From: Kiritimatiellia bacterium
GTDB lineage: Bacteria; Verrucomicrobiota; Kiritimatiellia; CAIVKH01
Direction of reading: 5' to 3'
Length of the DNA: 64,000 nucleotides
Assembly: GCA_027493775.1 (NCBI GenBank)
Contig: JAOSKE010000001.1
Coordinates: 1,258,917 to 1,322,916 of the forward strand
Positions 14,924-57,885 of the stretch are shown here, piece after piece. Under the pieces are notes generated by a model. It saw nothing but the letters and a program-made list of their open reading frames with translations, did not search any database and was not told the DNA's origin. Both the position numbers and the translations under genes were made by a program. The number at the start of each line of letters is the position of its first letter. Positions within the stretch are counted from its first letter, which is position 1.

Positions 14924-15922
14924 ATGGGCTCGGGCTGTGCCATCTTTCGGGCCGTGCGCAACTTTTTCATAGCTCTAGTGGGTCTGGTGACGGCAACCAC
15001 GGTGTTCGCGGCGGACCTTCGCGAATTGCCGGCCGACGGTTATGCAGCGATCGTGAATGACCGCGTCATCACGGTCGGCGATGTCTTGGAGTTCATTCAG
15101 GCGGATGCGCTGCAAATGCGCGATGAATTTTCCGGCGAGGAACTCGCGCGCCGCCAAATGCAGGCCTATGAAAAGGCACGCGAGCTGCTGATTGAGAACG
15201 CATTGATCGTCGAAGAGTTCAAAGCCCTCAAAGGCAACCTTCCCGACCGCATCGTGGATGACCGTGTAAAAGAGTTTATCTTCGACCAATTCCAAAATGA
15301 CCGCGCACGTTTTCTCGAAGCCCTCGCCGCCGACCAAATCACTCTCGAAGAATGGCGCGAGCGCGTGCGCGAACGGCTCATCGTCTCCATTTTGCGCCGA
15401 CAGGAGGTCACGGAACGTGTCGAGGTTTCGCCCGGCGCCCTTCAGTCCGCGTACACCAATCAGATGGACAAATGGAAGGTTCCCGCCAGCGTAAAGCTGC
15501 GCTTGATTGTTCTCCGACTCAACGACAATGACGATTTACAAAACGAGGAACAACGCGCCCTCGCAATTCGTGCGCGGGGCCGCATTCTCGCAGGCGAGGA
15601 CTTCGCGGAACTCGCGCGCGAAATCTCGCAGGACAGCAAGGCGGATAGCGGCGGAGACTGGGGCTGGCGCACGCTGTCGGACTTTAGCGCCGAACTTCAA
15701 AAAGCCATCAAGCCTCTCAAGAACGGCGAGATCAGCGACGTCATCGAAACGCCCGGCGTGATCTATCTCGCCCTCGTCGAAGACCGCAAGCCCGCCCACA
15801 CCCGCACCCTCGACGAAGTGCGCCCGGAGATCGAACAGGCTCTGCGTCAGGCCGAGGGGGAACGCCTTTACAACCGTTGGATTGATCGTCTGAAAAAGAA
15901 ATTTTTCGTTCAGGTCTTCTAA
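14924..15922 (+). CDS. SurA/PpiC-type peptidyl-prolyl isomerase/chaperone
   Basis: Signal peptide, 'AAIVNDRVITVGDVLE', PpiC-like 'ARGRILAGEDFAELAREISQDSKADSGGDWGW..LKNGEISDVIETPGVIYLALVEDRKP'. Confidence 0.85.
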   Translation: MGSGCAIFRAVRNFFIALVGLVTATTVFAADLRELPADGYAAIVNDRVITVGDVLEFIQADALQMRDEFSGEELARRQMQAYEKARELLIENALIVEEFKALKGNLPDRIVDDRVKEFIFDQFQNDRARFLEALAADQITLEEWRERVRERLIVSILRRQEVTERVEVSPGALQSAYTNQMDKWKVPASVKLRLIVLRLNDNDDLQNEEQRALAIRARGRILAGEDFAELAREISQDSKADSGGDWGWRTLSDFSAELQKAIKPLKNGEISDVIETPGVIYLALVEDRKPAHTRTLDEVRPEIEQALRQAEGERLYNRWIDRLKKKFFVQVF

Positions 15923-15924
15923 AT

Positions 15925-16003
15925 TTCCAAGACTTGGAAGTGCCTTTCGCAAAAACTTCCAACCCTTGGAAGTCCGACCTAAAATGACTTCCAACCCTTG
16001 GAA
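15925..16003 (+). repeat. Tandem palindromic repeat, 3 units at exact 32-bp period (TTCCAA-N3-TTGGAA at 15925, 15957, 15989), directly upstream of pdxA
   Basis: TTCCAAgacTTGGAA / TTCCAAcccTTGGAA / TTCCAAcccTTGGAA read directly; last arm is 5 bp from the ATG. Confidence 0.95.
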
Positions 16004-16008
16004 CTTTT

Positions 16009-17016
16009 ATGGCGAAGAAAAAACCACTACGAATCGGAATCACCCTCGGCGACGTCAACGGCATCGGGCCAGAGGTGGCATTGAAGGCCGCGCGGCGTTT
16101 GCGGCGCGTCAACGCGCAACTCGTGTTCATCGGCAACGCGGCGAACCTCGAACAACAGGCCATCGCACTAAAACTTTCGGCGCTCAGAATGGGATCCCCG
16201 ACAACCCGCCCGCCGCGCGCGCGTATTGCTGGTCACCCGACGAACAAAAATTGCGCTGGCAGCCCGGCAAGCTGGACCCCGCCGCATCCTCAGCGGCGGC
16301 AAGCTGGATTCTCGCCGGTGTTGATGCCTGCCTGCACGGAGAACTGGATGCAATTGTCACTGCGCCGATTTCCAAGGAGGGCTTTGATCGCGCGGGAATT
16401 GATGTGCCCGGCCACACGGAACTGCTGGCCGATTTATGCGGCGCAACGCGCGTGGGAATGATGCTGTTCGGCGGCCCGCTCCGCGTCGTGCTCGCAACGC
16501 GACACATTCCGATTTCTGCGGTCCCCAGCGCCCTCACCCGTCGTGTAATCGAGGATGCCATTGCATTGACCAACGACGCGCTTCCGTGGATGGGTGTCAA
16601 ACGCGCCAAAATTGCGGTGTGCGGACTCAACCCGCACGCAGGCGACGGAGGAAAACTCGGAACAGAAGACGATGCAATTGTGCGCCCGGCAGTTGAGCGG
16701 CGCGCAGCGACGCGGTGTAAACGTTTTCGGACCGCTCTCTGGAGACGCGGTCTTTTATCACGCCGCAAACGGGAGCTACGATGCGGTGATTGCGATGTAT
16801 CACGATCAGGGTCTCGCGCCACTGAAGCTGGCCGCGTTCGATACCGGCGTGAACCTGACCCTCGGCCTTCCCATCGTCCGCACCTCGCCCGACCATGGGA
16901 CCGCGTTCGACATCGCCGGAAAGAACAAGGCAAACCCGTCGAGCATGATGGCCGCGATTTCATGGGCCGCAACGCTTGCGGCCCGAAAAAACCCATGGAA
17001 GCGGGCGCGTTCTTGA
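16009..17016 (+). CDS. pdxA: 4-hydroxythreonine-4-phosphate dehydrogenase, two frameshifts
   Basis: [27 protein letters not shown]..; ..[30 protein letters not shown]..; ..[51 protein letters not shown] spread over three frames. Confidence 0.93.
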
Positions 17017-51336: not shown

Positions 51337-51383
51337 TTCCAAGGCTTGGAAGTGATGTCGAAAAGGACTTCCAAGGGTTGGAA
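51337..51383 (-). repeat. Tandem palindromic repeat, 2 units at 32-bp period, upstream of murA
   Basis: TTCCAAggcTTGGAA (51337) and TTCCAAgggTTGGAA (51369); toward murA reads ..TTGGAActtttaatt. Confidence 0.95.
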
Positions 51384-56492: not shown

Positions 56493-57696
56493 TTATTTCT
56501 TCCCCTGCTTCGCTCGCACCCGCAGGCGGAGGGCGTTGAGTTTAATGAATCCACTTGCGTCGCCCTGGTCGTAGCCGCCCGCGCCTTCGAAGCTGGCCAT
56601 GTGTGGATCGTAGAGCGACTTCGCGGCTTTGCGTCCGGCGACGGTGGCGGAGCCTTTGTAGAGCTTGATCCGCGCAACGCCGGTGACGGTGGATGCGGCG
56701 TCATCCATCGCAGCTTGCAACATTTCGCGTTCCGGCGCGAACCAGAAGCCGTTATACACCAGCTTCGCATACTGCGGAACGAGGCTGTTGCGCAGGTGCA
56801 ACACTTCACGATCCATTGTGAGCTGCTCCACCGCCTCGCGTGCGCGATACAAAATCGTGCCGCCGGGGGTCTCATAGACGCCGCGACTCTTCATGCCCAC
56901 GAAGCGATTTTCAACAAGATCAATGCGACCGACGCCGTGTTTGCCGCCGAGTTTGTTTTAAGACCTGCATCACGCCGAGCGGAGACAGTTTTTTGCCATT
57001 CACCGCAACCGCGTCGCCGCCCTTGAACTCGATCTCGACGTATTCCGGTTTCGCCGGCGCGCGTTCGGGGCTGACGCTCAACTTGAACATATCCGCAGGC
57101 GGCTCGTTCCACGGGTCTTCCAAAATCCCGCCTTCAAAGCTGATGTGAAGCAGGTTGCGGTCCATCGAATAGGGCTTCTTTGCGGAGGCCTCGACCGGAA
57201 TGCCGTGTTTTTCGCAATACGCGAGCATGTCGTTTCGACCGGTGAATTGTTTGCGATAGCGCTCCTCGCGCCAGGGCGCAATGACCTTGATTCCGGGCCG
57301 CAGTGCGTAGGCGGTCAGTTCGAACCGAACCTGATCGTTGCCCTTGCCCGTCGCGCCGTGAGCAATCGCGTCCGCGCCTTCCTTCACTGCAATCTCAACC
57401 ATCCGCTTTGCGATCAGCGGACGCGCGATGGAGGTGCCGAGCAAGTATCCACTCTCATACACCGCGCCTGCGCGAATCATCGGAAAAACAAAATCGCGCG
57501 CGAACTCTTCGCGGAGATCGTCCACATAGCACTTGAGTGCGCCACTTTTGCGCGCCTTTGCTTTGAGACCCTTAAGCTCTTCTTCCTGTCCGACGTCCGC
57601 CGCGAAGCAGATCACTTCCGCGTTGTACGTCTCCTTGACCCACTGCAAAATTACCGAAGTGTCCAACCCGCCCGAATACGCTAAAACAACTTTCAT
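56493..57696 (-). CDS. argG: Argininosuccinate synthase, one frameshift
   Basis: [37 protein letters not shown]..; C-terminal part [21 protein letters not shown].. in another frame; extra base in T4 at 56956-56959. Confidence 0.95.
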
Positions 57697-57838: not shown

Positions 57839-57885
57839 TTCCAAGCCTTGGAAGTCCGTTTGAACAAGAGTTCCAAGCCTTGGAA
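57839..57885 (+). repeat. Tandem palindromic repeat, 2 units at 32-bp period, in argG-nth divergent region
   Basis: TTCCAAgccTTGGAA at 57839 and 57871; last arm followed by gttttATG of nth. Confidence 0.95.

Follow-up and report, generated by a model that had tools for sequence, protein, structure and literature searches.

Helically phased arrays of a short inverted repeat behind genes of Kiritimatiellia as candidate binding sites of a dimeric protein

A repeat array between a surA-like gene and pdxA

The DNA analyzed here (hereafter, the window) was a stretch of 64,000 nucleotides from a Kiritimatiellia bacterium, whose genome is denoted G000 below. On the + strand of the window, a gene for a surA-like peptidylprolyl isomerase (14924..15922; NCBIfam match below the curated cut-off) was followed by pdxA (16009..17016), and the gap between them was filled by three copies of the 15-bp inverted repeat TTCCAA-N3-TTGGAA. 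The units, to which no strand was assigned, were located at 15925..15939 (TTCCAAGACTTGGAA), 15957..15971 (TTCCAACCCTTGGAA), and 15989..16003 (TTCCAACCCTTGGAA again). Direct matching bore out both the pattern and the exact 32-bp spacing that an earlier note on this DNA had described: all three units were exact, and each began 32 bp after the one before. The two 17-bp linkers between them (15940-15956, GTGCCTTTCGCAAAAAC, and 15972-15988, GTCCGACCTAAAATGAC, likewise without strand) were free sequence bounded by GT and AC. The surA-like stop at 15922 was 2 bp upstream of the array, and the third unit ended 5 bp 5' of the pdxA start, being followed by CTTTT and then the ATG at 16009. Rfam gave no match in positions 15800-16200 of the window up to E=1. 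The pdxA gene itself was named from the earlier reading and from its sequence character, without a family match; two apparent single-base frameshifts divided it among three reading frames, and the broken frame reflected either a pseudogene or assembly indel errors.

A search of the whole window that allowed up to one mismatch found seven units, every one of them exact, compared with 0.17 expected from shuffled sequence. The four units beyond the three already noticed formed two additional 32-bp pairs (51337/51369 and 57839/57871), both common to the congeneric genome G074. The pair TTCCAAGGCTTGGAA and TTCCAAGGGTTGGAA (51337..51383) was placed between the stop of glmS (51415) and the start of murA (51298), both genes being on the - strand. 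In the other pair (57839..57885), TTCCAAGCCTTGGAA occurred twice, and 5 bp separated the array from the ATG of nth (57891), with argG upstream on the - strand. This array was kept in G074 despite a different gene upstream of nth. The profile match of argG (56920-57696) ended after about 250 of 400 positions, suggesting another possible frameshift, which in addition to those of pdxA speaks for assembly indels.

Copy number, spacing and exactness of the units

Exact units numbered 186 in the genome of the window (3.2 Mb), with 87 pairs spaced exactly 32 bp apart, and the reversed-pattern control gave zero in both cases. Enrichment at 32 bp, on which the earlier note had staked its reading, was therefore strong. 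Near-identical arrays numbered about 90 across this genome, or approximately one per 35 kb. In a 667-kb sample of it, 88 units fell into 42 arrays of 1-4 units each, and 42 of the 46 steps between consecutive units measured 32 bp, with 31 bp in three and 33 bp in one. Each of the six apparently single units had a partner that carried 1-2 mismatches.

The units were also exact in an almost all-or-none manner. Counting per unit, so that both members of a pair contributed, partners at a distance of 32 bp were exact as well for 84 of 89 exact units in G000, 62 of 65 in G074, and 586 of 613 in other genomes. Partners with 3-4 mismatches were practically absent, and there was no decaying tail. The sites of ordinary transcription factors show much greater degeneracy. 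Another genome of the class, G065, was looser, with 41 exact units that lacked an exact partner, 18 of which lacked any partner. Taken together, the arrays combined helical phasing, symmetric sites, and conserved arms, as is expected of a protein-binding array.

Two minor features of the bases in and next to the unit were also seen. The first base after TTGGAA was almost never T (0-3%) in the first three sets (G000, G074, and L016-L133). The first and third N of the unit were complementary less often than by chance (25 vs. 42, 11 vs. 21, and 6 vs. 17), as if perfect palindromes were avoided.

Distribution and dialects within the class

The earlier note had recorded a faint impression that similar repeats recur in Kiritimatiellota genomes, and three scans substantiated it. 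Among 295 genomes sampled across the phylum, 25 had the exact TTCCAA pair, and every one of these came from the class of the window, Kiritimatiellia. Three-unit arrays, sought in GTDB contigs, were found in MAGs labelled Kiritimatiellae, Lentisphaerae, or Verrucomicrobia, and in several labelled only "uncultured bacterium". One further match, on a 5-kb contig with the label Bacteroidales, may reflect misbinning. When the pattern was relaxed to TTCCA-N5-TGGAA pairs with a linker of 15-18 bp, which limits steps to 30-33 bp, 64 of 147 class genomes gave matches, with a control of zero and up to 1362 pairs per genome. The maximum belonged to G316, a 6.7-Mb genome of the same family. In the open-access literature searched, we found no description of the motif or of such repeats in Kiritimatiellota, although absence there is not proof.

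Lineages used different dialects of the motif, with A, T, or C at position 6, and their spacing was quantized. At one locus in each of 28 genomes, consecutive steps measured 16 bp (1 case), 22 bp (12), 30 bp (4), 31 bp (28), 32 bp (14), and 51 bp (1). Across the class, steps of 22 and 30-32 bp prevailed and steps of 16, 33, 51, and 62-64 bp were rare; the 22-bp steps came from inspection without the 30-33 bp limit. One family (f10) had runs that stepped both 22 and 30-31 bp. Steps near two and three helical turns would be predicted if proteins bound on the same face of the DNA.

Arrays are concentrated behind stop codons

The arrays were mainly intergenic, with only 2 of 42 in G000 being coding, and their landmark was the end of the gene. 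The nearest array edge was 0-30 bp behind a stop codon for 19 of 42 arrays in G000, 10 of 29 in G074, 11 of 24 in G177, and 52 of 90 in G065. Genes were called with a simple home-made codon-usage caller, so that starts were less reliable than stops. In these four genomes, arrays were about 2-3 times as frequent in convergent gaps as in tandem or divergent ones; the excess per base was smaller since convergent gaps are longer. The neighbors were assorted (tsf/queF, murF/mraY, pgi, guaB, accA, aconitase, lpxB, uvrD, and a tolB-like gene), and no common function or regulon was seen among them.

Where arrays filled short gaps, some came to lie within a few bp upstream of a start codon, and pdxA was such a case. 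The expectation in the earlier note that placement would not be random with respect to starts was borne out in an unexpected way, the landmark being stops. GGAA was indeed the sole SD-like sequence 5' of pdxA, but that position was not general for the element. A reading as a promoter or ribosome-binding device specific to pdxA did not hold, as the arrays flanked assorted housekeeping genes. At the few start codons 5-7 bp away, TTGGAA may act in translation, but only as a side effect.

Conservation, motif replacement and origin of the arrays

The congeners G000 and G074, whose orthologues were about 76% identical, were compared at four array sites that both possess. At these sites 96 of 96 arm positions were identical, compared with 15 of 24 positions in the central NNN and 28 of 68 in the linkers. 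The arms remained identical while the linkers diverged, so that arms and spacing are under selection. Counted by gene sides, six had an array in both genomes, one and four in one genome only, and 104 in neither, which greatly exceeds the sharing expected by chance (p=5e-7). Some of these sides shared one gap, so that the independent common sites were glmS-murA, nth, tolB-like, and tsf-queF, together with the interdomain linker of NadE. In this last case the array was within the coding sequence in G000, G074, and G177, and the linker was shorter in G274, a genome without the array there. Beyond the genus, no excess sharing of array sites was seen except for NadE.

G274, another congener, had no exact TTCCAA pair. 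Its tsf-queF gap carried TTTCCATGCGCTGTAAATTACAGCGCATGGAAA and another copy 31 bp further, which belonged to a family TTCCATGCTCTGTAA with 38-40 pairs at exactly 31 bp (up to two mismatches). This family was non-palindromic and had been missed by the 6-3-6 palindrome screen; a related form was present in G047. Where a called stop was nearby, the G274 arrays were 21-80 bp behind it. Units of an intermediate form (TTCCAANNTCTGTAA) were present in both G000 and G074. At tsf-queF, the slot was kept while the motif was swapped, an observation that comes from a single gap. Pairs of TTCCATGCTCTGTAA were located in G274 at L304 (about 2351-2410) and L209-L215, some of them with identical linkers.

The placement and patchiness of the arrays bring to mind the REP/BIME sequences of Enterobacteria, which are repetitive extragenic palindromes close to stop codons (PMC12306157). 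On such a reading, the arrays would be repeats that spread by copying and gather at safe places behind genes, with a host function that is nil or secondary. Their position 3' of genes, the enrichment in convergent gaps, and the copy number ranging from 0 to 1362 pairs all fit, as does the presence of arrays in tolerant protein regions, of which the NadE interdomain linker is an example. Sites behind stop codons do gather harmless repeats, which counts against reading the arrays as binding sites. Moreover, the identical linker in 4 of the 27 listed G274 pairs suggests copying in that genome. Elsewhere the linkers of different copies were unrelated (one near-identical pair in 820 comparisons in G000), and at orthologous sites it was the linkers that decayed while the arms stayed exact; decaying copies were absent in G000 and G074. 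Within the final 110 bp of a G065 gene, a pair aligned gap-free to an orthologue without the pair, and several single G065 units likewise aligned gap-free to orthologues that lacked them. Gap-free alignment was seen in four coding cases of this genome. These alignments argue for an origin of units by substitution, and the identical G274 linkers against it. Spread by RAYT transposases was rejected, because Y1_Tnp (PF01797) did not track the arrays: there were no matches in G153 (88 pairs) or G053 (16 pairs) and ten in G274, which has no TTCCAA pairs. The arrays therefore lacked two features of REP/BIME, the RAYT link and related linkers, with G274 as the exception for linkers. They also differed in their short unit, a 15-mer that hardly varies, and in its helically fixed pairing and lineage dialects. 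We consider a repeat of this kind unlikely, although it is the most probable of the rival readings.

An element of DNA or of the transcript

The earlier note had offered a phased DNA-binding site and an attenuation hairpin as alternatives, and the evidence favored the former. Spacing was strict (42 of 46 steps) and quantized, units were exact or nearly absent, and the NNN had no polarity along transcription (25:22), so that NNN polarity as an RNA-level signal was rejected. The two units of a pair tended to share their NNN in the same orientation (19 vs. 7.3 expected in G000 and 9 vs. 2.9 in G074) and not as reverse complements. Linker ends and outer flanks showed no excess complementarity, and neither did most of the NNN, apart from one position in G065 and one in G177; other positions often showed a deficit. 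No compensatory pairing or long-hairpin covariation was found.

A hairpin formed by the pair in mRNA, which would terminate transcription or protect the 3' end, is suggested by the location behind stop codons and by the predicted fold of the pair as RNA (-24 to -28 kcal/mol). The T-runs that flank the array in G000 and G177 point the same way. However, the flanks differed among lineages, namely V-TTTT outside the array in G000, CTTTTT in G177, and A-rich in G065, where the base following the unit was A in about 90% of cases. A U-tract was therefore not the common function, and a U-tract terminator was rejected, as was the attenuation hairpin as a general explanation. Each unit offers two G-C pairs and no G+C-rich stem, terminator scans did not flag the arrays, and a hairpin loop would not need helically strict spacing. 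The absence of compensatory changes, with complementary pairs sometimes below chance, also speaks against an RNA stem, as do arrays inside apparent operons (murF-mraY) and 5 bp before the starts of pdxA, nth, and queF. This weakens a transcript role without removing it, since invariant arms cannot covary and the pair could fold as RNA; we regard such a role as improbable.

The dimer-like symmetry and the phased pairs would also be accounted for if the arrays were classical operators, through which a global transcription regulator controls targets that include pdxA, murA, and nth. The arrays directly before the pdxA and nth starts, the latter retained in G074 beside a different upstream gene, could be cited in favor of this reading. 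Nevertheless, the landmark of the arrays was stops and not starts, they were enriched in convergent gaps, their neighbors had no common function, and their exactness exceeded that of ordinary operators, all of which made an operator very improbable.

Even less credible was a motif maintained by biased DNA uptake and recombination. The uptake sequences of Neisseria and Haemophilus are likewise exact, differ in dialect among lineages, originate by substitution, and have AT-rich flanks, but obligate helical pairing, the palindromic unit, and the low density with few coding copies do not fit them. DNA uptake sequences are frequent, mostly coding, and consist of a non-palindromic single motif, and by form the arrays did not belong to them. 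ComEC was present in genomes with or without arrays and was uninformative on uptake. A CRISPR array was rejected as well, because the repeats were 15 bp long and stood at about 90 places, with 2-7 of them in a run, and Pfam searches of the flanking genes revealed no cas genes.

A putative dimeric protein acting at gene 3' ends

We propose that the arrays are probably, although by no means securely, cooperative binding sites for a putative dimeric protein that would act at the 3' ends of genes, either architecturally or as a boundary. The first half of this proposal, a DNA-level and helically phased array, is the better supported one; the role is suggested by the location and by the lack of a regulon. 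In such a system, the approximately 90 arrays of G000 would serve one sequence-specific protein, with each 15-bp inverted repeat, and its 12 nearly invariant arm bases, binding one dimer. Adjacent dimers may cooperate along a single helical face, and the bound complex would mark or insulate gene 3' ends rather than steer a regulon. The acting protein could shape nucleoid architecture or, as a roadblock, form a transcription boundary. Sites would turn over at about the scale of a genus, with the protein and the motif dialect changing together. The pairs in G177 and part of those in G074 were asymmetric, and a simple symmetric complex of two dimers is thus too simple. It is doubtful that the system extends to the whole class as a dedicated DNA-binding protein acting as a roadblock or insulator, which would coevolve with its dialect while the slot outlives the sequence.

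Although the arrays are placed like REP/BIME, they may work most like the dispersed site sets of chromosome-organizing proteins. The sites of MatP (matS) and Noc are tens to hundreds of near-exact palindromes per chromosome that are read by one dimeric protein. They resemble the arrays in this dispersal, but are single sites without obligate phased pairs or a tie to stop codons. HIP1 of cyanobacteria is a highly iterated exact palindrome that is kept at orthologous positions, like the arrays, and arises without insertion; unlike them, it is a far denser 8-mer that is also common in genes and does not occur in phased pairs. Rickettsia palindromic elements may also sit in frame in proteins, but they are inserted homologous copies of 100-150 bp, whereas several coding cases of the arrays showed no insertion. 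Eukaryotic roadblock terminators (Reb1 and TTF-I), where a site-bound protein at gene ends stops or insulates the polymerase, offer a functional analogy only.

If one protein reads the arrays, then close to half of the genomes sampled from Kiritimatiellia, an almost uncultured bacterial class, contain a chromosome-wide layer of organization overlooked by annotation. The dialects would then be a natural experiment on the joint change of a protein and hundreds of its sites. Should that protein act by halting or insulating RNA polymerase, bacteria would have their own counterpart to the roadblock termination of eukaryotes. Should the arrays turn out to be a mere repeat family, their exact arms, helical spacing, and apparent origin in situ would still be at odds with current REP-type models.

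Several minor observations were made outside these main sets. In G177 (L269:496 and 1929), a unit together with about 40 bp of downstream sequence was present twice, 1.4 kb apart. G007 (L221-L224), a class genome without these arrays, had a different repeated intergenic word, GGGGACAGGCAC. The viral scan matched one phage contig, IMGVR_UViG_3300035670_001097, with a single exact pair (L238:7669-7715) inside a 2549-aa ORF, probably in a disordered stretch of it.
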